Shown: in pieces, positions 1,237-17,639 of the stretch | How positions within the stretch are numbered: position 1 is the stretch's first letter | Layout of the letters: every line of letters begins with the position of its first letter | Assembly (NCBI GenBank): GCA_018812525.1 | Contig: JAHJDE010000175.1 | Location: forward strand, 1-34,456 | From: Gammaproteobacteria bacterium | Lineage (GTDB): Bacteria > Pseudomonadota > Gammaproteobacteria > Chromatiales > Chromatiaceae | DNA: 34,456 nucleotides | Reading direction: 5' to 3' | The notes under the pieces: model-generated | The model's input: the letters and a program-made list of their open reading frames with translations, nothing else | The model's database searches: none | What the model was told of the DNA's origin: nothing | Program-made: the position numbers and the translations under genes

Positions 1237-2085
1237 ATGAAAGCGATGCCATCCCTTCTCCTGCTCCTCACGCTACTATCCCCGGCACGGGTCTTTGCCG
1301 ATGCGGAACCAGCGGATTTCACCCTCAATGATCTCTCGGGCACCACGATCAAGCTCTCCGACTACCGGGGGCATTGGGTGGTCGTCAACTTCTGGGCGAG
1401 CTGGTGCGCCTCCTGCGCCGACGAGACAAAGGAACTGATCGAGTTTCAGCAGCGCTATCCCCGCATCCGGCTCCTGGGGATCAACTACGAGCAGCAGACC
1501 GAAAAAGGGCTTCGGCCGTACCTGAGCCAGTTCGAACTCAACTACCCCCAACTCCTCCTCAGATACACAACCCTCTCCCCCTTCGAGCCCTTGAAAGGCC
1601 TGCCCACCACAGCCATCGTCAACCCCGACGGGATCATGGTGAGCAAGTACGCCGGCTCGGTCACGGTCGAGATGCTGGAGACCTTCTTCCGCAAGGAGGG
1701 GGTCATCTCCGACCCCAAGGCGGTGCAAGCGGCCAAGGAGGCGGAAGAGGCCAGACAGGCCGAGGAGCAGGCCGCACAGGAAAAGGCGGAAGCAGAAGCG
1801 GAGGCCAAGGCAGCGGCTGAGGCAAAGGCCGCCGAGCAACGAGCGGCCAAAGAACGGGCAGCAAAGGTGCGCGCGGCCGCCAAGGCCAAGGCGGCTAAAG
1901 AGAAGGCGGCGCGGGCACGGGCCGCGCGCAAGGCGGCCCAGGAGAAGGCCGCCGCTGAGGCCAGTGCGGCTGCCGAGGCGCAATCCGCCGCGCAGACCCA
2001 GGCCACATCCGGACCCCAGGCCGCGCCGGTCCAGACAACTATCCCCCCCATCCCGCCACCCGAGGCCAAGTCCGGCAACCCCTGA
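1237..2085 (+). CDS. Exported TlpA-like thioredoxin-fold protein with TolA-like Ala/Lys/Glu tail
   Basis: This 282-residue protein starts with a signal peptide (residues 1 to about 21, MKAMPSLLLLLTLLSPARVF). A TlpA/ResA-type thioredoxin domain follows, with the redox motif W56-C57-A58-S59-C60 and the cis-proline loop GLPTTAIVNPDG. Family members reduce periplasmic disulfides, for example in cytochrome c maturation. From about residue 160 the protein becomes a long run of AKAAAEAKAAEQRAAKERAA-type repeats. This is predicted to be one charged helix of TolA type, and it ends in a proline-rich tail (TTIPPIPPPEAK). The fusion is unusual because most TlpA proteins end after about 170-190 residues. 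The tail could reach across the periplasm or bind the cell wall (inference). It is a single-gene unit. Confidence 0.85.
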   Translation: MKAMPSLLLLLTLLSPARVFADAEPADFTLNDLSGTTIKLSDYRGHWVVVNFWASWCASCADETKELIEFQQRYPRIRLLGINYEQQTEKGLRPYLSQFELNYPQLLLRYTTLSPFEPLKGLPTTAIVNPDGIMVSKYAGSVTVEMLETFFRKEGVISDPKAVQAAKEAEEARQAEEQAAQEKAEAEAEAKAAAEAKAAEQRAAKERAAKVRAAAKAKAAKEKAARARAARKAAQEKAAAEASAAAEAQSAAQTQATSGPQAAPVQTTIPPIPPPEAKSGNP

Positions 2086-2186
2086 CCGGGAAGACGGTGG
2101 TTAGAGGTTTTTTCACAGCCTCTCAGCCCAGCAGGGGGTGGTGAGCGGTAGCGAACCGCATCCTACAGCGCTACCACCTCCGAATG

Positions 2187-2204
2187 CCCCGTCGTCCGGC
2201 GGGG
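2187..2204. terminator. Possible hairpin behind the TlpA-like gene
   Basis: CCCCG at 2187 pairs with CGGGG at the right end of a short GC-rich stem (CCCCGTCGTCCGGCGGGG). There is no strong T-run behind it, so it is a weak candidate for the transcription end of the TlpA-like gene. The rest of 2086-2259 holds no gene. Confidence 0.3.
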
Positions 2205-2259
2205 GGCTCATGTTATCCACAACTTTTCCACCTTTCGCCAACCGCTATTCCCCTGCAAA

Positions 2260-2307
2260 ACACAATATGTAGTGGTTGACTCCTTCGCTAGTGCGTATAT
2301 ATTGTGG
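2260..2307 (+). promoter_or_regulatory. Paired NrdR boxes overlapping the nrdA promoter
   Basis: Box 1 is ACACAATATGTAGTGG (2260-2275) and box 2 is TGCGTATATATTGTGG (2292-2307). Both match the NrdR-box pattern acaCwATATaTwGtg. They start exactly 32 bp apart, about three helical turns, which is the spacing known for NrdR. A sigma70-like promoter is interleaved with them: -35 TTGACT (2276-2281), a 16-bp spacer, and -10 TATATT (2298-2303). Box 1 abuts the -35 and box 2 covers the -10, so NrdR bound with ATP/dATP should block RNA polymerase. The nrdR gene itself is not in the window. Confidence 0.85.
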
Positions 2308-2388
2308 CAGATGACCCATCAGGTCCCGTCGGCGACGCCGGCGAATCCAAGCAAATGCCCCGGAAAACGGCAGCATCCAGGAGGAATC

Positions 2389-5322
2389 ATGGCAAACGAG
2401 TGTATTCAATCCACCCCCACCGGCACCTGGGTCCCCCCGGTCACGGCAAAGTCTGAGCAAGGCGGATCGCATCCGAAGACACAGGGCTTCGCGTTTCATG
2501 TCATCCGCCGCAACGGCAAGATAACGGCCTTCGACCCGAACAAGATATCGGTCGCCATGACAAAGGCCTTCCTGGCCATCGAAGGGAACACCGCGGCCAC
2601 CTCCAGCCGAATCCACGAGACCGTCGAGCGCTTCACCCAGCAGGTGATCCAGGCACTGACCCGCACCGGCTCCAATGTCCATATCGAGGACATCCAGGAC
2701 CAGGTGGAGTTGGTGCTGATGCGTTCCGGGGAACACAAGGTCGCCCGCGCCTATGTGCTCTACCGTGCCGAGCGCGCCCGTGAGCGCGAGGAGGCGGCCC
2801 GTCAGGCTGAAGCCGGGAGCGAACAGCCCCAGATCCACATCCTTCAGGCCGACGGCAGCCGCCGTCCCCTTGACGTGCAAAGCCTGCGGGAGCTAGTGGA
2901 GGAGGCCTGCCAGGGGCTGGATGAGGTCAATGCCGAAACCATCCTCAACAGCGGCCTGCGCAACATCTTTGACGGCCTCAAGGCGTCCGATGTCACCCAG
3001 ACCCTGGTGATGAGCGCCCGCACCCTGATCGACCAGGAGCCCAACTATTCCCAGGTGGCGGCGCGCCTGCTGCTGGACCAGTTGCGCCGCGAGGCCCTGG
3101 GCTTCCTGCACCTGGAGCCGGTGGACACCCAGTCCCAGATGGGGGGCTGCTACGGCGACTATTTCAAGGGCTACCTGGACAGGGCGATCGCACTGGAGCT
3201 GCTGGACCCCCGCCTGGCCCAGTACGACCTGGATCGCCTGACCGCGGCCCTCAAACCCGAGCGCGACCTCAACTTCACCTACCTGGGCCTCCAGACCCTC
3301 TACGACCGCTATTTCATCCATTATGACGACGCCCAGGGAGGGGCTAGTGTCGCGGGAGGCAGGATGCCGGGAGCGACCCAGATCAAACATACCTTCGAGC
3401 TGCCCCAGGCCTTCTTCCTGCGCGTGGCCATGGGCCTGGCGATCAACGAGATCGACCGCGAGGCGCGGACCATTGAGTTCTACGACCTGCTCTCCAATTT
3501 CGACTTCATGAGCAGCACCCCGACCCTGTTCAACTCCGGCACCCTGCGCCCGCAGCTCTCCAGTTGCTACCTGACCAGCGTGCCCGACAACCTGGAGGGG
3601 ATCTACGGCGCCATCCGCGACAATGCCCTGCTGTCGAAATATGCCGGCGGCCTGGGCAACGACTGGAGCCGGGTGCGCGGCCTGGGCTCCCACATCAAAG
3701 GCACCAACGGCAAGTCCCAGGGCGTGGTCCCCTTCCTCAAGGTGGCCAACGACACCGCCGTGGCGGTGAACCAGGGCGGCAAGCGCAAGGGGGCGGTCTG
3801 CGCCTACCTGGAGACCTGGCACGTGGACATCGAGGACTTCCTCGAACTGCGCAAGAACACGGGCGACGAGCGCCGCCGCACCCACGACATGAACACCGCC
3901 AACTGGATTCCCGACCTCTTCATGAAGCGGGTCGCGGAGGAAGGGGAATGGACCCTGTTCTCGCCCAACGAGGTCCCGGACCTGCACGACCTCACCGGCC
4001 TGGAATTCGAACGCGCCTACACCGCCTATGAGGAGAAGGCCGCCCGCGGCGAGATCCGAATCTCCCGCAAGCTCAAGGCCCTGGACCTCTGGCGCAAGAT
4101 GCTCGGCATGCTGTTCGAGACCGGCCATCCCTGGATCGCCTTCAAGGACCCCTGCAACATCCGCTACAGCAACCAGCACCTGGGCGCCGTGCATAGCTCC
4201 AACCTCTGCACCGAGATCACCCTGCACACCAACGACAGCGAGATCGCCGTCTGTAACCTGGGATCGGTCAACCTGGCCGCCCATGTGAGCGAGCAGGGCC
4301 TCGACCTGGCGCGGCTGGAGCGCACGGTGACCACCGCCATGCGCATGCTCGACAACGTCATCGACTACAACTACTACTCGGTGCCCCAGGCGCGTAACTC
4401 CAACCTGCGCCACCGCCCCGTCGGGCTCGGCATCATGGGCTTCCAGGACGCCCTCTATAAACTACGCACCCCCTACGCCTCTCCAGAGGCGCTGGAATTT
4501 GCCGACCGATCCATGGAGGCGGTGAGCTACTTCGCCATCCGGGCCTCCACCGGCCTGGCCGAAGAGCGCGGGCGCTACTCCAGCTTCAACGGCTCCCTCT
4601 GGAGCCAGGGCGTCCTGCCCATCGACTCCATCCGCCTGCTGGCCGAACAGCGCGGCAGCTACCTCCAGATGGACGAGGGCCAGACCCTCGACTGGGACAG
4701 CCTGCGCGAGCGCGTCAAGACCGTCGGCATGCGCAACTCCAACACCATGGCCATCGCGCCCACAGCCACCATCTCCAACATCTGCGGCGTGAGCCAGTCC
4801 ATCGAGCCCACCTACCAGAACCTGTTCGTCAAATCGAACCTCTCCGGCGAGTTCACCGTGGTCAACCCCTACATGGTGCGCGACCTCAAGGCGCGCGGCC
4901 TCTGGGACGCCGTCATGGTCAACGACCTCAAATACTTCGACGGCTCCGCCCAACCCATCGACCGCATCCCCGAAGACCTCAAGGCCCTCTACGCCACCGC
5001 CTTCGAGATCGACCCCCGCTGGCTGGTGGAGGCCGGCTCCCGCCGCCAGAAGTGGCTCGACCAGGCCCAAAGCCTGAACCTGTACATGTCCGAACCCTCC
5101 GGAAAGAAGCTCGACAACCTCTACAAACTCGCCTGGGTGCGCGGCCTCAAGACCACCTATTACCTCCGCTCCATGGGCGCCACCCATATGGAAAAGGGGG
5201 CCGACGACAGCTCATCCTCGATCCTCGCCGAATTCAAGGGCGACAACCTGCTAGGCGGCACCGGTACGGAAGCCCCCAAGGCATGCAGCCTGCTCGACCC
5301 GGAGTGTGAAGCCTGTCAGTAG
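2389..5322 (+). CDS. nrdA: Ribonucleoside-diphosphate reductase, class Ia, alpha subunit
   Basis: This 977-residue protein reduces ribonucleoside diphosphates to deoxy forms together with NrdB. Two ATP-cone domains lie at the N-terminus (about 35-125 and 137-236), an arrangement known from Pseudomonas-type NrdA; the first regulates overall activity through ATP/dATP. The catalytic barrel shows LSSCYL (C393), the N-L-C-T-E motif with C607, and AVCNLGSVNL for the second redox cysteine. The C-terminal shuttle pair is C973-E-A-C976. An in-frame ATG exists at 2272, but 2389 is preferred: it has the ribosome site AGGAGG, and the earlier start lies inside the promoter and NrdR boxes. Its partner nrdB follows only after a RAYT insertion. 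Confidence 0.96.
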   Translation: MANECIQSTPTGTWVPPVTAKSEQGGSHPKTQGFAFHVIRRNGKITAFDPNKISVAMTKAFLAIEGNTAATSSRIHETVERFTQQVIQALTRTGSNVHIEDIQDQVELVLMRSGEHKVARAYVLYRAERAREREEAARQAEAGSEQPQIHILQADGSRRPLDVQSLRELVEEACQGLDEVNAETILNSGLRNIFDGLKASDVTQTLVMSARTLIDQEPNYSQVAARLLLDQLRREALGFLHLEPVDTQSQMGGCYGDYFKGYLDRAIALELLDPRLAQYDLDRLTAALKPERDLNFTYLGLQTLYDRYFIHYDDAQGGASVAGGRMPGATQIKHTFELPQAFFLRVAMGLAINEIDREARTIEFYDLLSNFDFMSSTPTLFNSGTLRPQLSSCYLTSVPDNLEGIYGAIRDNALLSKYAGGLGNDWSRVRGLGSHIKGTNGKSQGVVPFLKVANDTAVAVNQGGKRKGAVCAYLETWHVDIEDFLELRKNTGDERRRTHDMNTANWIPDLFMKRVAEEGEWTLFSPNEVPDLHDLTGLEFERAYTAYEEKAARGEIRISRKLKALDLWRKMLGMLFETGHPWIAFKDPCNIRYSNQHLGAVHSSNLCTEITLHTNDSEIAVCNLGSVNLAAHVSEQGLDLARLERTVTTAMRMLDNVIDYNYYSVPQARNSNLRHRPVGLGIMGFQDALYKLRTPYASPEALEFADRSMEAVSYFAIRASTGLAEERGRYSSFNGSLWSQGVLPIDSIRLLAEQRGSYLQMDEGQTLDWDSLRERVKTVGMRNSNTMAIAPTATISNICGVSQSIEPTYQNLFVKSNLSGEFTVVNPYMVRDLKARGLWDAVMVNDLKYFDGSAQPIDRIPEDLKALYATAFEIDPRWLVEAGSRRQKWLDQAQSLNLYMSEPSGKKLDNLYKLAWVRGLKTTYYLRSMGATHMEKGADDSSSSILAEFKGDNLLGGTGTEAPKACSLLDPECEACQ

Positions 5323-5330
5323 ATTTGATC

Positions 5331-5434
5331 GTTCCCACGCTCCAGCGTGGGAATGCATCCCCGGACGCTCCAGCGTCCCGGATCGCGACGCTGGAGCGTC
5401 GCAGGCGGCACGTTCCCACGCGGAGCGTGGGAAC
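5331..5434. repeat. REP palindrome cluster, left of RAYT
   Basis: Four palindromes stand in a row: GTTCCCACGCTCCAGCGTGG, GGACGCTCCAGCGTCC, GCGACGCTGGAGCGTCGC, and a second GTTCCCACGC...GCGTGGGAAC. They begin 8 bases behind the nrdA stop. The arrangement (a BIME-like block) is repeated in related form at 6004-6113 on the other side of the transposase gene. It is the expected substrate of the neighbouring RAYT protein. Confidence 0.88.
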
Positions 5435-5457
5435 GACAGGGCGGGAGACTTATAACC

Positions 5458-5991
5458 ATGGGCCGAAGCCGTTACCTCATCACCGAGCCGGACAAGCCCC
5501 ACTTCCTCACCTGCACGGTGATCGAGTGGCCGCCGGTCTTTACCCGGCCCGATGCGGTACAGATCCTGCTGGATAGCTGGACCTGGCTGCGTAACCAGGA
5601 GGGATTGCGGCTTTATGGCTATGTGGTGCTGGAAAACCACCTCCACTTCGTCGCCCAGGCACCACGGCTGGATAAATGCCTGAACAGCTTCAAGTCCTTC
5701 ACTGCGGCCCGGCTCATTGAGTTGCTGGAGACGCGCCAGGCCGAGCATCTACTTGCCCGGTTGCGCTTCGCCAAACGGGCACACAAACAGGACAGGGAGT
5801 ATCAGTTCTGGCAGGAAGGGTCCCATGCGGAGATGGTCTTTAACGAGGCGGTAATGCGGGAGAAGCTGGACTATATCCACTTCAACCCGGTGAAGCGGGG
5901 CTATGTGGACCTACCAGAGCACTGGCGCTACTCCAGTGCGCGGGATTACCTGGGTAAGACGGGGCTGATCGGGATCGACCCTTGGTGTTAG
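5458..5991 (+). CDS. REP-associated tyrosine transposase (RAYT)
   Basis: This 177-residue single-strand DNA transposase belongs to the IS200/Y1 superfamily. The HUH pair is H61-L-H63 in VLENHLHFVAQ, and the nucleophile is Y139 in KLDYIHFNPVKRGYV. The family cuts REP hairpins and is domesticated in many gammaproteobacteria. The start is set at ATG 5458 because earlier in-frame codons lie inside the REP palindromes and the family begins near MGRSRY. REP clusters flank it on both sides, so the whole unit 5331-6113 looks like an intact REPtron. It lies between nrdA and nrdB in the same direction, which makes nrdB expression through the insert a question. Confidence 0.92.
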   Translation: MGRSRYLITEPDKPHFLTCTVIEWPPVFTRPDAVQILLDSWTWLRNQEGLRLYGYVVLENHLHFVAQAPRLDKCLNSFKSFTAARLIELLETRQAEHLLARLRFAKRAHKQDREYQFWQEGSHAEMVFNEAVMREKLDYIHFNPVKRGYVDLPEHWRYSSARDYLGKTGLIGIDPWC

Positions 5992-6003
5992 ACCTGATCG
6001 CTG

Positions 6004-6113
6004 ATCGCTCCCAGGCTCCAGCGTGGGAATGCACCCCCGGACGCTCCAGCGTCCCGAGTCGCGACGCTGGAGCGTCGCAAACGGCATTCCCACGCTGGAG
6101 CCTGGGAACGATC
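6004..6113. repeat. REP palindrome cluster, right of RAYT
   Basis: The outer arms are GATCGCTCCCAGGCTCCAGC near the left end and its near-perfect reverse complement ending GGGAACGATC at the right. Between them lie GGACGCTCCAGCGTCC and GCGACGCTGGAGCGTCGC. The block as a whole is a large imperfect palindrome. It is a sibling of the cluster at 5331-5434 and ends about 35 bases before nrdB. Confidence 0.87.
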
Positions 6114-6149
6114 ACGTAATTAAGCAGTAACAAAAAACGGAGACCCACC

Positions 6150-7337
6150 ATGCTGAACTGGGACGACCCCCTCAAAACCACCCTCCCCCCGACGCCCCGC
6201 GCTGCGGTCGTCGCCGGGTTGGCAACACCTGATGAGTTCACGGATGAGGAAGCAACCCAACAGTTGGACTTCGCCCTTGAGGACACCCGCCCCCATCTAA
6301 AGTCCAGCGCCCCCGTCCCGCCCCCGTCCATGAAACCGGTCAATCCGGAGGATAAGCGCGTGGTCAACGGCCATACGGACATCAATCAATTGGCGCCCTT
6401 CAAGTATCCCTGGGCCTGGGAGTATTTCCTCAACGCCAACAAGAACCACTGGACGCCGCTTGACATCAACATGGCCCAGGATGTCCACGACTATCACCAC
6501 AAGCTGACCCTGGAGGAGCGCCACGTCTACGAGAACGTGCTCTCCTACCTGACCACCTCCGACATCCTGGCCATGCGCAACATCGGCCTGGCGGTGATGG
6601 AGAAGATGTCCGCCCCCGAGTTGCAGATCTATCAGGCGCGGCAGGTCTACGAGGAGTCGCTGCACACCTGGACCTATCAGCACTGCATCGAGACCATCGG
6701 CCTCGACCAGGGGGAGATCTACAATCGGTACAGAGTGGTCCCCGAGATCAACGGCAAGATCCAGCTCTCCAACCGCCGCCTCAGCTCCATCCTGCGCGCC
6801 GACATCGACCTGACCGACCGGGACGAGCTGCACAATTTCCTGATGGCCTACCTCTTCTTCGCGGGGATATTCGAAGGCTGCTGGTTCTACAACGGCTTCA
6901 GCCCCATCTTCGCCCTGCAACGGCGCGGGCTGATGAAGGGTACGGCGGAACAGTTGCAATACATCATGCGTGACGAGGTGCTGCACGCCTCCTTCGGCCT
7001 GCGGGTGACCAAGCAGATCATGCAGGAGGAGCGCATCACCCCGGACCCCAAGGCCCTGCGCGAGATGTGGGACGAGTGCGAGGCCGCCGAGCACGCCTAT
7101 GCCGGCTACATCCTGCGCGACCCCATCCTCGGCTACTCGGCGGCGGACCACATGGAGCAGTTCCGCTTCATCGCCAACCGCCGCTCCCGCCAGATGGGCT
7201 TCGAGCAGGACCCCTTCCCCGGCGCGCAAAACGCCCTGCCCTGGCTCGACGAACAGGCCAACCTGCGCAAGGAGAAGAACTTCTTCGAGACCCGCGTCAC
7301 CGAGTATCAGACCGGCGGGGCCTTGAAGTGGGAGTGA
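6150..7337 (+). CDS. nrdB: Ribonucleoside-diphosphate reductase, class Ia, beta subunit
   Basis: This 395-residue diiron protein carries the tyrosyl radical used by NrdA. The ligand set is visible: D138 in TTSDIL, then E169-x-x-H172-x-x-x-Y176 in EESLHTWTY (the pattern of E. coli E115, H118 and Y122). The second half-site is FEGCWF and RDEVLHASFG. The tyrosine at the radical position argues for class Ia rather than Ic. A roughly 75-residue N-terminal extension rich in proline and acidic residues makes it longer than E. coli NrdB (376). The ribosome site CGGAG precedes the ATG. It normally sits next to nrdA; here the gap is 827 bases because of the RAYT unit. Confidence 0.95.
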   Translation: MLNWDDPLKTTLPPTPRAAVVAGLATPDEFTDEEATQQLDFALEDTRPHLKSSAPVPPPSMKPVNPEDKRVVNGHTDINQLAPFKYPWAWEYFLNANKNHWTPLDINMAQDVHDYHHKLTLEERHVYENVLSYLTTSDILAMRNIGLAVMEKMSAPELQIYQARQVYEESLHTWTYQHCIETIGLDQGEIYNRYRVVPEINGKIQLSNRRLSSILRADIDLTDRDELHNFLMAYLFFAGIFEGCWFYNGFSPIFALQRRGLMKGTAEQLQYIMRDEVLHASFGLRVTKQIMQEERITPDPKALREMWDECEAAEHAYAGYILRDPILGYSAADHMEQFRFIANRRSRQMGFEQDPFPGAQNALPWLDEQANLRKEKNFFETRVTEYQTGGALKWE

Positions 7338-7355
7338 GCCCCTCTACCCTGGGGT

Positions 7356-7400
7356 GATGACCTTGGGCCATGGCGGGACGCCGGTGGCCCGAGGGTCATC
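7356..7400. terminator. Long hairpin behind nrdB
   Basis: GATGACC (7356-7362) pairs with GGTCATC (7394-7400), and inside it GGGCCA pairs with TGGCCC, giving a 45-base two-step stem. It starts 18 bases after the nrdB stop. It probably protects or ends the nrd transcript. Confidence 0.6.
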
Positions 7401-7420
7401 CCATCCATCCCTCCTGCCTG

Positions 7421-7446
7421 AAACATGAACGGGTTCATGTTTTGGG
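7421..7446 (+). terminator. Rho-independent terminator after nrdB
   Basis: AAACATGAAC pairs with GTTCATGTTT around GG (7421-7442) and is followed by T and G bases. The 10-bp stem with A-run and T-run ends is the form of a bidirectional intrinsic terminator. Between here and 7556 there is no gene; the short inverted repeat GTACC-AA-GGTAC at 7475-7486 might be a regulator site for the adhesin. Confidence 0.6.
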
Positions 7447-7556
7447 GAATTTTCTCCCTCCCCGTCCTCCGTCTAGTACCAAGGTACATTCCTATCGGCG
7501 CCCATAGACACTAGAATTATCCTCGAACAAGAGAGTTTCTTCGTCCCCAGTAAAGG

Positions 7557-7618
7557 AAATCGAAAAACACTCTTTTCGATTTACGTCTCTAAAAATGCCA
7601 GGGATGGAATTTTTAGAG
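7557..7618. repeat. Two-hairpin intergenic repeat, copy 3 (diverged)
   Basis: Hairpin A pairs AAATCGAAAA (7557-7566) with TTTTCGATTT (7573-7582). Hairpin B pairs CTCTAAAAAT (7587-7596) with ATTTTTAGAG (7609-7618) around GCCAGGGATGGA. Compared with copies 1 and 2 the arm sequence has changed on both sides so that pairing is kept, while the loop motif CCAGG-ATGG stays. It ends 53 bases before the adhesin start and may lie in its leader. Confidence 0.75.
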
Positions 7619-7671
7619 GTCCCCTAAAGATGCGGGGCACCAGACCCTGTCTCGATGGAGAATTTGCTGCC

Positions 7672-10600
7672 ATGAACACTTCAAGCGGAACCACCCTGGC
7701 CATCGGCATCGCTACTCAGGTCAGCGGCCATGTGACCGTCACTGGCAGAAATGGCGATACGCGCATACTCCATGCGGGCGATTTTCTGTTCGAGGGCGAT
7801 ATGGTCCACACCGGCCCGGGCGGCAGCGCCTCGCTGGAATTCAATAACGGCAGGCGCATGGATCTGGGCCGCGACAGCAGCGCCAACGTCCTGGTGGTGG
7901 AAGATCCAGCCCCCTCCACCGAGATATTTCTGGCCGACAACGAACCCCCGGCGGCTGGGCCTTACGCCGTTCTCCAGCCCCAGACGGCCTCAACCACCGC
8001 CGGATCCGGTCCAAGAGACGAGTCCCAGGTTGTCGAATACATCGATCGTACTGCCGATCTGGGTAAGGTCGATGCAGGCTATGTTACAAAGGGACCCGGC
8101 TTCGCCCTTGAAAGCGAGGTCGAGTATCTGAGCAACAATTTCCGCACGGGGATGCTGGGTAATGTAGATGCCGGCTACGAAACTGCTGGCCTGGATTTTT
8201 CTTTCAACGACAAGGTCCTTACTATCGATGCTCCGACATCAGGATCTGGCCCCAGCCCCGGCGCCCTCGCGCCTTTGTTTGCTTCTATCGCCCTGGATCA
8301 AAATATCAGCCTCGACGATGTCATCAATGCCATCGAAAAAGATCAGGACATCGCCATTACCGGATCCACCGGCGGCGACGTGGTGCCCGGCGACCCGGTC
8401 ACAATCAGCGTCGGCGGCAGGAGCTACAGGGGGCCTGTTGACGTAAACGGCCATTTCAGCATTGATGTCCCTGGCAGCGTGTTGGCCAGCAACCCGCAGA
8501 CCAGTATCCAGGCAAGCGTTACCCATACGAACGGCGTCGGCACCAGCGTCACGGCTTCGGACAGCGCGACCTACGGCGTGGATGTCACCGCCCCGACCCT
8601 CACCGTCGATGCCCCCGACAACAGCAGCGATCCCACGCCGACCATCACCGGCACTACCGATGCCCCGGACGGCAGCATCTTGAATCTCACCGTTACCGAC
8701 AGCAACGGCGTCGTGCAGCAGCTCACCACTGTCGCTACCGGCGGCAGCTACAACCTGGATGTCCCGGCCGTCCTAGCCGAGGGCAGCTATACTGTCTCCG
8801 CCACCGTCACCGACCCCGCCGGAAATATCGTCAATGCCGCAGATACGGGCAGTATCGATACCCTTGCGCCGGTCCCCAGCATCGCCCTGGATGCGGACAT
8901 CGCTGGCGACGACATCATCAGTGCCGCCGAAAGCGGCCAAGATATCGCCATCACTGGCATCGTCGGTGGAGACGCCCAGGTAGGCGACACCGTCACCCTG
9001 ACCGTCAACGGCAAAACCTTCAGCGGAACCGTTCAGGCCGACTTCCGTTTCAGCATCGATGTCCCTGGCGCCGATCTGGTCAACGACAGCGACCACAGCA
9101 TCGATGCCAGCATCACCACAGGGGATGCCGCCGGCAATGTCGGCACGGCTTCCGATACGGAAGGCTACAGCGTCAGACCGGTCGCCCTCGATGACAGCTT
9201 CACCCTCAACGAGGATGCGGTGCTGAGCGGGACCCTGGCGGGCAACGACAGCCTGTCCGGCGACGGCGGCAACAGCTTCGCCAAGGCCACCGATCCGGCC
9301 CATGGGGTCCTGGTGGTCAATGCCGACGGCAGCTTCACCTATACCCCGGTGGCCAACTACAGCGGTCCCGACAGCTTCACCTACAGCCTCACCGATGCCG
9401 ATGGGGATCTGAGCACGGCGGTGGTGAACCTGACGGTCAACCCGCTGGATGACGTGCCGGTCGCGGTCGATGACAGTTTCACCTTGAACGAAGACGCAGC
9501 GCTGAACGGCTCCTTGGCGGGCAACGATACGGCCTCCGGCGATGGCGGCAATGTCTGGGCATTGGCCAGCAACCCCAGCCATGGCGCCGTGACCGTCAAC
9601 CCGGATGGTTCTTTCAGTTATACCCCTGCCGCCAACTACGCAGGCCCCGACAGCTTCACCTACAGCCTTACCGACACCGACGGCGATCTGAGCACCGCCA
9701 CCGTCAACCTGACCGTCAGCCCGCTGGACGATGTCCCGGTTGCGGTCGATGACAGTTTCACGTTAAACGAAGACGCGGCGCTGAACGGCTCCTTGGCGGG
9801 CAACGATACCTTGAGTGGCGATGGCGGCAATGTCTGGGCCTTGGCGGTCAACCCGGCCCATGGCGCGGTCACGGTCAATGCCGACGGCACTTTCTCCTAC
9901 ACCCCTGCCGCCAACTACGCAGGCCCCGACAGCTTCACCTATACCCTCACCGACAGTGACGGCGATCTGAGCACCGCCACCGTCAACCTGACCGTCAGCC
10001 CGTTGGACGATGTCCCGGTCGCGGTCGATGACAGTTTCGTCCTCAACGAAGACGCAGCGCTGAACGGCTCATTGGCGGGCAACGACACGGCCTCCGGCGA
10101 TGGCGGTAATGTCTGGGCCTTGGCCGGCAACCCCAGTCATGGCACCGTGACCGTCAACCCGGATGGTTCTTTCAGTTACACCCCTGCCGCCAACTACGCA
10201 GGCGCGGACAGCTTTACCTATACCCTCACCGACACCGACGGCGATGTGAGCACCGCCACCGTCAACCTGACGGTCGATGCCGTCAATGAAGTGGTGGCGA
10301 TCAATGACAGCGCAACGACCAATGAGGATACGCCGGTCACTATCCCGGTCATGGGCAACGACTCCGACCCGGAAGGCGATACCTTCGCCGTTACCGCGGC
10401 AACTCAGGGTGCCAACGGTTCGGTGGTCATCGACCCCGTTAGCGGCAATCCGGTCTATAGTCCCAATGCCGACTGGAGCGGCACGGACAGCTTCACCTAC
10501 ACCCTCACCGATGCCAACGGGGCAACCGATACTGCTACCGTCTCCGTCACAGTCAATCCCGTGCCCCCCGTTGTTTCCATAACCGCGACTGATGGCAGTG

Positions 10601-13600
10601 CCGTTGAGGGCTCGGACAACAGCATCGTCTTTACCGTAAGCCAGAACGAGATCGACGGTAACGACACGACCGTCGACATCGCCCTCAACCTGGGCGAGGT
10701 GGAAGCGGAAGACATCGCCTCCATTGCCTATACCGACAGCAATGGCATCGGCCATACCTTGTCGTCCCAAGCGCAAATCAGCGATTTCGTCACCAACGGG
10801 GGGACGCTGAAGATCCCCGCCGGCAGCACCAATGCCCCGGCGATCACCATCACCGTGATCGATGACGCCTTGCTGGAGATGCCCGAAACCCTCAGCATGT
10901 CTATCAGCAACCCGGTCAACGCCACCCTTGGCACCGCCAGTGACACAGCGGCCATTGCGGATGAGTCGACGGCCCCCGATCCGATTGACACCGTCTATGT
11001 CCGCATCCTCAACGACGCGGCGTTGATCGAGGACGACGGGGTCAAGCTGAGCCATCAGGTGCAGTTGGTGGACATGGACGGCAATGAGGTGAAGCTCTAT
11101 GCCGGCCAGTCGATGACCATCAATCTCGCCTACTCCAACGACACGACGGAAAACGCCGATTTCCAAGCCGGCGGCAGGATGACCCAGGTCGTCATCTTGG
11201 GCAGCGCAGCGGGTGTGAGTACAGCCACCATCGAAAATACGATCGCGGACGATGCCTTGCTGGAAGGCGACGAGGCCTACAGCCTCACAATCGGCACCAT
11301 CGAAGCCGGTCACCCCTTCGAAAACGTGCAGGCCGCCGGGGACGGCGCCACCCCGGCCGACGGCAATCCCATGTCCGTCACCGGCACCATCCATGATGAT
11401 GAAACCCCCATCGCGCCGACCCTCAGCGGCGATCAGACCATTCGTCTTTCCGAAGAGGGATTGGCCGATGGGCTGGCTGATTCCGTTGGGAACAGCGACA
11501 CGACCGATGCGGTGGTATACAGCGGCAACTTCGCGGTAGCCGATGCCAACCCGACGGATATCCTGACTCTGACGCTGTCCGCGCCCGCCGGAATTTACAC
11601 CTCCAACGGTGAATCGATCAGTTGGGCACTGAGCAACGCCAATAAGACGCTGACCGGATCGACGACAGCCGGCGATGTCCTTAAGGTCGATATCAACGAT
11701 GCGGGGGCCTACACCGCCACCCTGCTCGGCCCCATCGATCATGCGGCGCCCACCGGACCGGCGACTTCGGAGGAGAACCAGTTGACGGTAGACCTCCAAG
11801 TAACCGTTAACGACGGCACCGGCCGCAGTGATACCTCAACCCTAAGCCTGGTGATCGAGGATGACTCGCCCCATGCGTCCAATGGCGACAACATCATCAA
11901 CCTGGAAATCAGGCCCATCACCACCAACATCATCTTCACCCTTGATATCTCGGGGTCGATGGGTAGTGGGGCCGGGTCCAAATATGAAATCGCCCGGCAG
12001 GCACTGTTGGATACCATCAATGCCTATGAAGAGAATGGTCCGGTCAATGTCAGCCTGACCGTCTTCAGTACACAGGGCTCGGTTGCATTCGACTGGCTGC
12101 CATCCGCGGACGCCAAGACCTATATTACCAACAGCCTAACGGCGGCCGGCGGCTGGACCAACTATGAGGATGCCCTCTACGAGACGATGAAGGTCAGCAA
12201 TGGCGGGTTCCCACCTGCCACACAAACGGTCGCCTACTATCTCTCCGATGGCGTACCGACGGTTGAGTTGAACGACGGCACGCCCAATCCGGATGACGTA
12301 ACTGGGGGGAATACACAGGACGGCACCGGCTCGACCTATCTCGATGATGCCCATATCACAAATTGGACTGCGTTCATCGAAAGCAACAATATCGATCTCA
12401 CCGTGATTGGGATAGAGATGACCGATGCAACCTACCTGGACAGGGTGCAGATCCAGGCCGGCAAGACGGCCATCCTGGTCAATGACGCAAGTGACCTGAG
12501 CGGCACTATCCTCAATCAGATCGATCTCTACAAAGACGGCGATCTGACCACTGATGTCGAAGGCAACACCTTGATCGACTTTGGTGCCGACGGCGGTTAT
12601 CTCGAATCAGTCACCATCGCTGGGAACACCGTCCAATATGATCCCAACAACCCCACACAGACGGTCGCCGGCACCCACGGCAACTTCACCATCAATTTCA
12701 ACACGGGCACCTATCGATACACCGTTACCGACACCAATTACGTCGATCACACCGAAATCATCGGCGCGGAGATCCTGGACAATGACGGCGACCTGGTGGA
12801 CACCATCCTGCTCAACATCAACATCGCCTATGACGTTGCCTTTGGCACCGCGCCGCACATCAGGGAGGCCGATACCAGCGTCGTCGAGGACATCGCCCAG
12901 GTCATCGCCACGGCGACCGACTCGAACGGCACCATCGTTACGAATACCCTCAATGCGAATCATGGCACCGCGACCCTGGATGCCAGCGGCAATATCACCT
13001 ATGCACCCGACAGCGGCTACCTGGGCCGGGATGTGGTCAGCGTCTCCGTGACCGACAATGAGGGCAAGACCAGCACACGCAACATCGTCGTGGATGTCAT
13101 CACGGCGGCGGAGAATGCCGATACGCCGACATTGACCATGGACATCACGCAGGCAGGCGGCCTTGCCGCTGTCAACCAGACAGACGCCTTTGCCGCGGGC
13201 CTCGATGGCTGGAGTGGCACCGGCGTCACTCAAACCAGCGGTTACATGAACATCGACACGGGGGGCTATACCGCATCGAAGACCTTCGACTTTGGCGCCG
13301 GTTATGCCAACAAAACAGTGACCATCGGCTTCACCACCGACATCGCGGCCAGCTCCTGGGATGGAGGCACCGATAGGATGCAAGTGAATGTCAACGGCGC
13401 TGCCGCCTATAGCAAAACCCAGGACGCGGATCTGGATAGCGGGGTCAGCCACAGCTTCAGCGCTACTCTCGATGGCAATGGCCGTCTTTCCGTCCAGATA
13501 AACAGCAACGCCACCCAATCCGGCGAGTATCTTCGCGTTGATAATTTCAATCTTCAGATCGACGGCACCTTTGAATATCAGGTCGATCTCAACGCCGCTG

Positions 13601-14778
13601 TCACCGACCCCACGGAGACGCTTTCACCCATCACCCTCAAAGCCCTTCCCTACGGCGCGACGCTTGAGGATGCCAGCCGCAACCCCATCACCGCCAATGC
13701 CGATGGCAGCTATACGGTTCCCGTGGTCGCTGGCAACGCAACCGTCTGGATCGTCTCAGCCAGCGCGATGAGCGCCGCCCAGATCGATGCCCTGACCGCC
13801 TCCGTCACTTCCACCCAACCCGGCAGCGGTGATATAGCAACCGTCGAGGTCCATGGCGATAACGGCACGGCGGTTATTATCGACGGTATCGTCGCCGGCC
13901 TGATCTATGAGACCAGCTCGGGGATTACCGGCTATACCGGTGCGGACGGCTATTTTGAATACGTTGCCGGCGACACCGTTGTGTTCAAACTGGGCAACCT
14001 CATCATCGGAACTATCGATACCCAGGAGATCCAGGACGGCAAGGTCTTCCTCCAGGATATTGCCGGCGTCGAGCGCACCGATCTCAACGACAATTACGTG
14101 GAGAACATGGCGGTACTGCTGCAATCCCTCGATGAGAACAGCAACGCCTATGACGGCATCGTCATCACCGAGGCCATGCATCAGGCCTTCGCCGGCGACG
14201 GCTTCGATCTGGCCAGCATCTCCGAAGCGGAACTGCGCGCTCTTATTGAACTGACTGGCTTTCAGGCCGTTTCCGAGGAAGATGCCATGCAGCATGTGCA
14301 AGACATGCTGGAGTTACATGCGGGAATCGATGAGGGAGCGTTCGAGGCCCATCTTGATGATGACTTGCTCGCCATCGCCGAACCCGATCCGCAGGCAGAG
14401 GATCTGCTCTACCTCAGCGAACCCGACGATGATACGGGTAGTTTGCATGCAAGCTACCTGATGTCGTCCGGCGAAAGCCTGCTGCTGATGGATTTCGGCA
14501 ATCTGGCGGACAACCCCCTTGGCGATGATGCCGGCGACCTCCTGATCCATGCCCCGGGTGAAGAGGGCGAAGATCTCCACATGAGCTATCTGATCCAGGC
14601 GGAAGATAATCTGATGTCGCTGAATTTTGGCCAACAGTCGCAAGAAGGTGGCGATCAGATAGAGCATAACCTCCCCGCCCAACCGGCCGGCAGCACCCAT
14701 CCGGATTTGCCGGAGAGCTATGCGGCTCCAGATCAGCCTCTATTGCATATCGACTCTCCGGATCATGGCCTCGTTTAA
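7672..14778 (+). CDS. Giant LapA-like surface adhesin with retention module, cadherin-like repeats and VWA domain
   Basis: This 2368-residue protein has an N-terminal retention module of the LapA/BapA type (residues 1-75, IATQVSGHVTVTGRNGDTRI). Behind it is TTAG at 108-111, where LapA has its TAAG protease site. Ig-like Ca-binding domains follow (about 220-500). Then come four cadherin-like repeats of exactly 93 residues (VDDSFTLNEDAALNGSLAGN; 506-877) and a diverged fifth. Next are a Calx-beta-like region, a von Willebrand A domain with MIDAS D1425-x-S1427-x-S1429, a further cadherin-like repeat and a carbohydrate-binding-like segment. The last 190 residues are acidic with an internal duplication (LHASYL / LHMSYL). 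No RTX nonapeptides are seen, and no type I secretion genes are nearby. The start at 7672 (GGAG upstream) is preferred over in-frame ATG 7630. Likely role: cell adhesion and biofilm. Confidence 0.88.
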   Translation: MNTSSGTTLAIGIATQVSGHVTVTGRNGDTRILHAGDFLFEGDMVHTGPGGSASLEFNNGRRMDLGRDSSANVLVVEDPAPSTEIFLADNEPPAAGPYAVLQPQTASTTAGSGPRDESQVVEYIDRTADLGKVDAGYVTKGPGFALESEVEYLSNNFRTGMLGNVDAGYETAGLDFSFNDKVLTIDAPTSGSGPSPGALAPLFASIALDQNISLDDVINAIEKDQDIAITGSTGGDVVPGDPVTISVGGRSYRGPVDVNGHFSIDVPGSVLASNPQTSIQASVTHTNGVGTSVTASDSATYGVDVTAPTLTVDAPDNSSDPTPTITGTTDAPDGSILNLTVTDSNGVVQQLTTVATGGSYNLDVPAVLAEGSYTVSATVTDPAGNIVNAADTGSIDTLAPVPSIALDADIAGDDIISAAESGQDIAITGIVGGDAQVGDTVTLTVNGKTFSGTVQADFRFSIDVPGADLVNDSDHSIDASITTGDAAGNVGTASDTEGYSVRPVALDDSFTLNEDAVLSGTLAGNDSLSGDGGNSFAKATDPAHGVLVVNADGSFTYTPVANYSGPDSFTYSLTDADGDLSTAVVNLTVNPLDDVPVAVDDSFTLNEDAALNGSLAGNDTASGDGGNVWALASNPSHGAVTVNPDGSFSYTPAANYAGPDSFTYSLTDTDGDLSTATVNLTVSPLDDVPVAVDDSFTLNEDAALNGSLAGNDTLSGDGGNVWALAVNPAHGAVTVNADGTFSYTPAANYAGPDSFTYTLTDSDGDLSTATVNLTVSPLDDVPVAVDDSFVLNEDAALNGSLAGNDTASGDGGNVWALAGNPSHGTVTVNPDGSFSYTPAANYAGADSFTYTLTDTDGDVSTATVNLTVDAVNEVVAINDSATTNEDTPVTIPVMGNDSDPEGDTFAVTAATQGANGSVVIDPVSGNPVYSPNADWSGTDSFTYTLTDANGATDTATVSVTVNPVPPVVSITATDGSAVEGSDNSIVFTVSQNEIDGNDTTVDIALNLGEVEAEDIASIAYTDSNGIGHTLSSQAQISDFVTNGGTLKIPAGSTNAPAITITVIDDALLEMPETLSMSISNPVNATLGTASDTAAIADESTAPDPIDTVYVRILNDAALIEDDGVKLSHQVQLVDMDGNEVKLYAGQSMTINLAYSNDTTENADFQAGGRMTQVVILGSAAGVSTATIENTIADDALLEGDEAYSLTIGTIEAGHPFENVQAAGDGATPADGNPMSVTGTIHDDETPIAPTLSGDQTIRLSEEGLADGLADSVGNSDTTDAVVYSGNFAVADANPTDILTLTLSAPAGIYTSNGESISWALSNANKTLTGSTTAGDVLKVDINDAGAYTATLLGPIDHAAPTGPATSEENQLTVDLQVTVNDGTGRSDTSTLSLVIEDDSPHASNGDNIINLEIRPITTNIIFTLDISGSMGSGAGSKYEIARQALLDTINAYEENGPVNVSLTVFSTQGSVAFDWLPSADAKTYITNSLTAAGGWTNYEDALYETMKVSNGGFPPATQTVAYYLSDGVPTVELNDGTPNPDDVTGGNTQDGTGSTYLDDAHITNWTAFIESNNIDLTVIGIEMTDATYLDRVQIQAGKTAILVNDASDLSGTILNQIDLYKDGDLTTDVEGNTLIDFGADGGYLESVTIAGNTVQYDPNNPTQTVAGTHGNFTINFNTGTYRYTVTDTNYVDHTEIIGAEILDNDGDLVDTILLNINIAYDVAFGTAPHIREADTSVVEDIAQVIATATDSNGTIVTNTLNANHGTATLDASGNITYAPDSGYLGRDVVSVSVTDNEGKTSTRNIVVDVITAAENADTPTLTMDITQAGGLAAVNQTDAFAAGLDGWSGTGVTQTSGYMNIDTGGYTASKTFDFGAGYANKTVTIGFTTDIAASSWDGGTDRMQVNVNGAAAYSKTQDADLDSGVSHSFSATLDGNGRLSVQINSNATQSGEYLRVDNFNLQIDGTFEYQVDLNAAVTDPTETLSPITLKALPYGATLEDASRNPITANADGSYTVPVVAGNATVWIVSASAMSAAQIDALTASVTSTQPGSGDIATVEVHGDNGTAVIIDGIVAGLIYETSSGITGYTGADGYFEYVAGDTVVFKLGNLIIGTIDTQEIQDGKVFLQDIAGVERTDLNDNYVENMAVLLQSLDENSNAYDGIVITEAMHQAFAGDGFDLASISEAELRALIELTGFQAVSEEDAMQHVQDMLELHAGIDEGAFEAHLDDDLLAIAEPDPQAEDLLYLSEPDDDTGSLHASYLMSSGESLLLMDFGNLADNPLGDDAGDLLIHAPGEEGEDLHMSYLIQAEDNLMSLNFGQQSQEGGDQIEHNLPAQPAGSTHPDLPESYAAPDQPLLHIDSPDHGLV
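9187..10302 (+). repeat. Four tandem 279-bp units inside the adhesin gene
   Basis: Units begin at 9187, 9466, 9745 and 10024, each exactly 279 bases after the last. Each starts with codons for DDSFxLNEDA and carries the stretch PAANYAG-DSFTY. Units 2-4 are close to identical at DNA level. A diverged fifth unit starts at 10303. They encode cadherin-like domains of 93 residues and are a likely site of copy-number change by recombination. Confidence 0.9.
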
Positions 14779-17546: not shown

Positions 17547-17639
17547 CGAAAATCGTGGCCCCCTGTTTTTCACAGTTTTTTTGCCTGTTTTGCTAACCGC
17601 CATCTAGCCAGAATATACAGTATTTTGTATAATTCACGC

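Follow-up and report, generated by a model that had tools for sequence, protein, structure and literature searches.

A RAYT transposase gene and its palindromic units between nrdA and nrdB in a genus of Chromatiaceae

Organization of the nrdA-RAYT-nrdB junction

The window analysed here is the whole stretch of 34,456 nucleotides of contig JAHJDE010000175.1 (assembly GCA_018812525.1), and belongs to a genome (G000) of 3.5 Mb in 215 contigs. The two genes of a class I ribonucleotide reductase are separated in it by an intact RAYT gene lying between two palindromic units (Table 1). The gap from the nrdA stop codon (5320-5322) to the nrdB ATG at 6150 measures 827 bp. This agrees with an earlier note on this DNA, which had described a RAYT with flanking repeats parting the two genes by 827 bases, and gap, open reading frame and both units were all recovered. 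The element was also found where that note had placed it, at 5331-6113, but the edges of the units are slightly wider. nrdA most likely starts with the ATG at 2389, and a longer reading frame from 2272 is also open. A GGAGA motif at 5444-5448 lies 9 nt 5' of the RAYT ATG, and the 3' unit begins 10 nt past the RAYT stop.

The surroundings hold two further genes of note. Directly 3' of nrdB, a repetitive open reading frame of 2382 aa (7630-14778) encodes a probably secreted, adhesin-like protein (cadherin/VCBS-like by eye), and 5' of nrdA (1237-2085) there is a TlpA/ResA-like thioredoxin whose long tail is rich in Ala, Glu and Lys.

Table 1. Features of the nrdA-RAYT-nrdB region, in window coordinates
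Feature	Position	Strand	Basis
NrdR-like box	2260-2275	+	match to the presumed NrdR consensus
Sigma-70-like promoter	2276-2303	+	promoter scan
Degenerate second NrdR-like box	about 2291-2306	+	by eye
nrdA, class I ribonucleotide reductase alpha	2389..5322	+	NF005544, 1667 bits
5' palindromic unit	5326..5436		alignment, fold
RAYT / TnpAREP-like HUH tyrosine transposase, 177 aa, intact	5458..5991	+	ORF, NF047646
3' palindromic unit	6002..6114		alignment, fold
nrdB, class I ribonucleotide reductase beta	6150..7337	+	NF005550, 334 bits
Hairpin of 13 pairs resembling a terminator, 3' of nrdB; may end the transcription unit	7417..7446	+	scan at chance level overall

The RAYT protein

The RAYT open reading frame matches the NCBIfam profile NF047646 (REP_Tyr_transpos) at 95.3 bits, above its cut-off of 80, and no Pfam family at E 0.001. 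A profile built from eight relatives has one match in the PDB, 4er8 (TnpArep; E 4.9e-7). The catalytic motifs are represented by the HUH motif H61-L-H63 and by Y139-I-H-F-N143 (Y139-x-x-x-N143), and H61, H63, Y139 and N143 are invariant in 8/8 aligned relatives. Indeed, an HUH motif with a catalytic Tyr followed by an Asn (N119 in E. coli) is what the available part of PMC6006769 gives for class 2 of TnpAY1 (RAYT/TnpAREP), class 1 having Y---Q and class 3 Y----Q.

The palindromic units and their dispersal

The 5' and 3' units, of 111 and 113 bp, are about 90% identical when aligned. Each is an inverted double palindrome in which four small hairpins are arranged in mirror order, and the whole unit folds into a single long hairpin, at -87.2 kcal/mol (z -11.8) for the 5' unit and -96.8 kcal/mol (z -13.9) for the 3' unit, with 0/200 shuffles as stable in either case. 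The motif CGTTCCCACGC, with at most one mismatch, occurs eight times in the window, seven of them inside the two units (expected 1.05), and GACGCTCCAGCGTC, with at most two mismatches, occurs nine times, always inside the units (expected 0.45). Since these counts exceed expectation, the motifs are not due to chance.

The repeat is dispersed in the window's genome, where it was found at no fewer than 43 merged places; as this figure comes from 40 of 79 candidates, further places are likely. In another species of the genus (G001) it occupies 20 merged places, with all 39 candidates scored. The units fall into two size classes, set apart by the central spacer. In both genomes the RAYT is flanked by multicopy dispersed repeats, as expected of a REPtron, and this part of the earlier note's "complete REPtron" stands, with a RAYT and dispersed repeats on both sides; what is missing is the GTAG tag. 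Indeed, neither window unit contains GTAG or CTAC, and one of 16 aligned copies has one. Because of this, the window units are not canonical REPs. Both units have a GTGG, which by eye sits inside the stem and not at the hairpin foot. Among the matches listed in a literature search with the letters of the repeat, no title concerns it.

RAYT relatives in other genomes

A second RAYT of the window's genome, 84% identical in amino acids and with units on both sides, lies on a contig (C26) of 5985 bases on which no nrd gene is present. Of 210 genomes of the window's family, 42 carry such a RAYT (E 1e-30) and 46 contain a match to the unit, with at most four candidates scored per genome. In a viral collection, 47 stretches matched a pattern and none of these encodes a RAYT relative.

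A scan of named genomes gave at least 492 relatives, and the figures that follow are for the best 80 of these, 68-83% identical on the best segment. They include Halothiobacillus, Sulfuricella, Desulfobulbus, Gallionella, methanotrophs, Pseudomonas, cyanobacteria and others. Within 600 bp of the RAYT, 76/80 have a TTCCCANGC-type motif, and 69/80 have it on both sides, against a chance expectation of about 0.03 per locus, obtained by arithmetic without a shuffle control. In 45/80 the RAYT is bracketed by a left and a right half-unit, and thus the dispersed unit resembles the element minus its gene. The window and G001 have a complete unit on both sides of the gene, and so do 6/80; no end motif on either side is seen in 6/80, and mixed arrangements in 23. 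The RAYT of G208, 82% identical to that of the window, has none of these end motifs.

In the window's family, no nrd gene adjoins the RAYT at the other loci examined (33 of 34 rows without one). Among the best 80 of at least 492 relatives, an nrd gene is near in L198 and L202, which represent one lineage with the RAYT beyond nrdB and convergent, and in L252, at about 3 kb; these are too few cases to claim a general pattern. In the former two (Halothiobacillaceae; L198 776-1303, L202 277-810), the RAYTs are 80-83% identical to that of the window and are oriented oppositely to nrdB, about 0.9-1.5 kb past its end; the NrdB beside them is of a different type.

Age and inheritance of the insertion

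G001 carries the same RAYT at the same nrdA-nrdB junction, with a gap of 773 and 89% amino acid identity of the RAYT. Between the two species, which make up the genus sample, dS is 0.330 for RAYT, 0.355 for nrdA and 0.433 for nrdB, and dN is 0.058, 0.056 and 0.047, respectively, with dN/dS of about 0.18, 0.16 and 0.11. As the dS and dN of the RAYT are near those of nrdA, the gene has been passed down vertically under a constraint about like that of nrdA, and these substitution rates show purifying selection on it. A recent insertion is thus ruled out, since both species share the RAYT with nrdA-like divergence. In a tree with 28 RAYT rows, of which 22 come from the 80 named loci, the pair of genes linked to nrd group as sisters (95/80), and together with the C26 copy they make up a clade of three (94/87). 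G001 has one RAYT at E 1e-10, and a counterpart of the C26 copy was not found there.

In the wider family, a close NrdB is present in 66 of 210 genomes, with nrdA upstream in 64; the remaining two stop at contig ends. A RAYT lies in 2 of these 64 readable junctions, both of the window's genus. The comparison with relatives that the earlier note had proposed thus shows that those outside the genus have no RAYT at this place, and the possibility it had raised against an insertion, a RAYT as ancient neighbour in all relatives, does not apply: the association is old within the genus and not in the family. The anatomy of the element, its identical site in both species and its absence from the other readable family junctions are direct readings of the sequences.

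When the flanks of 30 repeat loci of G000 and 30 of G001 were compared, long flanks that match on both sides were seen at the nrd site alone. The other matches were of the C26 RAYT to the nrd RAYT (L010, L011) and of stretches of about 150 nt from L012 that are probably further units. The nrd site is not the sole shared repeat site, as a second one was found outside the compared G001 set. At this intergenic site (L005 / L308), G000 carries a full unit where G001 has a single hairpin, possibly a view of a unit shrinking or growing.

Transcription signals and stop-proximal hairpins

A promoter scan of 1900-7700 gave two hits, both starting at 2276 before nrdA (2 versus 0.9 in shuffles), and no sigma-70-like promoter in the insert, in a crude scan near chance level. 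No terminator-like site was found in the insert, with a weak scan that gave four in the region, one of them the hairpin at 7417 past nrdB, and 4.5 in shuffles. Both scans are near chance and are confined to sigma-70-like and intrinsic signals, with Rho and other sigma factors outside their scope. The box before nrdA at 2260-2275 was identified with the NrdR consensus. With three mismatches allowed this consensus has three matches, two of which are the two strands of this box and one a weak match at 17615. At this sensitivity, the earlier note was right that nrdB is not preceded by a second pair of NrdR boxes. As promoter-like sites were found only before nrdA, a single nrdA-RAYT-nrdB transcript is likely and would be the simplest reading.

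The first predicted pair of the 5' unit is at 5329, and the hairpin begins 6 nt past the nrdA stop in the window and 7 nt in G001, well within 15 nt in both. According to the accessible portion of PMC12306157, translation in E. coli is lowered by REPs that lie 15 nt or less past a stop codon, and a REP-containing nrdAB transcript is counted among REPs at this distance. In the nrdA-nrdB gap of E. coli K-12 (L157; 233 bp, REP-like by eye, z -7.1), the first predicted pair likewise lies 6 nt past the nrdA stop. By analogy, an effect of the units on nrd expression is plausible, with an altered NrdA:NrdB subunit ratio as one possible outcome for which the E. coli REP-containing nrdAB transcript would be the precedent, and a stop-proximal effect on translation or decay seems likelier than termination.

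Structure in the nrdA-nrdB junction across the family

The spacer left outside the units amounts to 3+35 = 38 nt in G000 and 12+21 = 33 nt in G001. Both values fall among those of the 58 measured family spacers without RAYT, which extend from 12 to 751 bp with a median of 60. Of 66 loci, L121 and L151 (no nrdA, contig ends) and four with the NrdB start missed by the motif, whose spacers are short by eye, were left out before measurement; the 257 nt of L100 are probably overlong owing to a misread nrdA end. The longest of these gaps, in L039 (G008; 751 bp), holds an open reading frame that by eye resembles an ImmA/IrrE-type metallopeptidase and represents a separate gene insertion at this junction. 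L050 (G005) has an extra open reading frame of about 190 codons by eye between nrdA and nrdB.

The fold test took 47 of 60 measured spacers (40-350 nt), and the nrd pair was recognised in 35 of 40 stretches; control gaps came from a crude gene caller (coding fraction 0.48-0.91), with rows of the same genus not independent and genus labels assigned by hand. For spacers of 80-350 nt, z<-3 was reached by 14/25 nrd versus 15/111 control gaps (Fisher p 2e-5; 8/10 genera), and for all spacers of 40-350 nt by 14/47 versus 16/152 (p 0.004). At z<-5, the figures for 80-350 nt are 5/25 versus 11/111 (p 0.17, not significant), and spacers of 40-79 nt gave 0/22 versus 1/41. A test of perfect arms in gaps of 80-300 nt was not robust (arm of at least 9, 9/15 versus 16/102; of at least 11, 2/15 versus 10/102). 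A strong claim of a hotspot is therefore upheld in part only, failing at z<-5 and in the arm test, and it is only suggestive that nrdA-nrdB spacers may be richer in structure than control gaps.

Individual junctions of other genera contain dispersed palindromes unrelated to the units of the window. G103 has a GTAGGAG-type palindrome there with 67 match rows in its own genome, and G021 another with 36, a row being a match on either strand or a part of one, not a place. Shorter GTAGGAG palindromes occur at the junction of G115 and G113, two members of the genus of G021, and the G021 palindrome matches elsewhere in their genomes with 24 and 20 rows, respectively.

Comparison with known systems

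The element, a RAYT with palindromes of its own that lack the GTAG tag, is of a known kind, and the place where it has persisted is unusual. With the REPtron of E. coli it shares the HUH and Y---N motifs and the dispersed inverted repeat pairs on both sides. It differs in that its units are double palindromes without the tag, and in the half-unit bracketing of its relatives described above, whereas canonical REPtrons carry REPs tagged with GT[AG]G at the hairpin foot, according to the available parts of PMC6006769 and PMC8266576. The missing tag brings the units closer to TIRtrons, for which the part of PMC3733652 at hand describes a RAYT (TIRYT) flanked by long, sometimes double-palindromic TIRs. 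Shared features are the lack of GTAG, self-complementary tracts in the flanking inverted repeats and genomic copies elsewhere, while the window differs by having a full unit at either end; compared by description of the TIRs, the two may be of the same type. Stable hairpins in the gap from 6 nt past the nrdA stop are common to the window and to E. coli nrdAB (L157, and PMC12306157 in its accessible portion). The E. coli gap has a different repeat family and no RAYT gene, and its palindromes are thus presumably of independent origin. No description of a RAYT inside nrdA-nrdB was found in the open-licence literature, to the extent that its texts were available.

Possible roles of the element in the nrd operon

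On balance, it is probable that a RAYT element of a widespread family, consisting of the gene and two-hairpin palindromes, entered the nrdA-nrdB spacer in the ancestor of the genus and remained there, with its hairpins acting post-transcriptionally and the RAYT persisting for its own activity. The three genes would be transcribed together from the NrdR-type promoter before nrdA, and the polymerase would read through the hairpins, since these are not followed by a U-tract. Past the nrdA and RAYT stops, the hairpins could then block 3' exonucleases and/or slow ribosomes at the stop, thereby setting the output of nrdA and nrdB separately. What keeps the RAYT itself would most likely be its own action on the dispersed repeats, the nrd junction being a home that is tolerated and well expressed. 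What speaks against this explanation is that the stop-proximal effect has been reported for REPs of E. coli and not for the repeat of the window.

The element might also be a neutral passenger in a spacer that tolerates DNA, its hairpins having no measurable effect on nrd and the RAYT being kept only for its own activity. This is possible, although somewhat doubtful. The variable lengths of family spacers and the other open reading frames carried there by G008 and G005 are consistent with it, and because such variable spacers are common a regulatory role is not required; moreover, purifying selection on the RAYT needs no nrd role, and structure at z<-5 is not significantly richer than in controls. 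From the E. coli precedent, however, some effect would be expected of such strong stop-adjacent hairpins, placed 6-7 nt past the nrdA stop in both species.

Transcription attenuation is a term that appears in papers on REPs, and hairpins of -87 and -97 kcal/mol in untranslated gaps might stop or attenuate transcription, for instance with Rho, nrdB being then expressed from a promoter inside the RAYT or at a lower level than nrdA. The earlier note had entertained this too, but termination by the units is the weaker guess: the crude scan finds neither a terminator-like nor a promoter-like site in the insert, and in G001 nrdB follows the 3' unit after 21 nt, too short a stretch to hold a promoter, so that such a mechanism is unlikely. 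Slightly less likely again is that the RAYT was retained at the junction for its NrdR control, which would couple its activity on single-stranded DNA to dNTP demand or replication. It would fit with this that the RAYT is intact and constrained within an NrdR-type operon in both species compared, and that long matching flanks are seen at this site alone among the 30 plus 30 loci; the further shared repeat site, the C26 RAYT on a contig devoid of nrd genes, and the 33 of 34 family rows without nrd beside the RAYT argue against it, and conservation of a gene does not prove conservation of its location. A similarly low likelihood attaches to the fuller version, in which an NrdR-controlled ribonucleotide reductase operon would have acquired a domesticated HUH transposase as its middle gene, tying repeat mobilisation on single-stranded DNA to dNTP demand, at a junction that would be a recurrent landing site for unrelated palindromes setting the NrdA:NrdB ratio.

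Collectively, this locus is a natural case of a constrained RAYT fixed inside an essential two-subunit operon, with relatives that have an empty junction available for comparison. If the recurrent palindromes of the nrdA-nrdB junction do function, as the case of E. coli suggests, REP-like tuning of operon stoichiometry would become testable across several apparently independent acquisitions.
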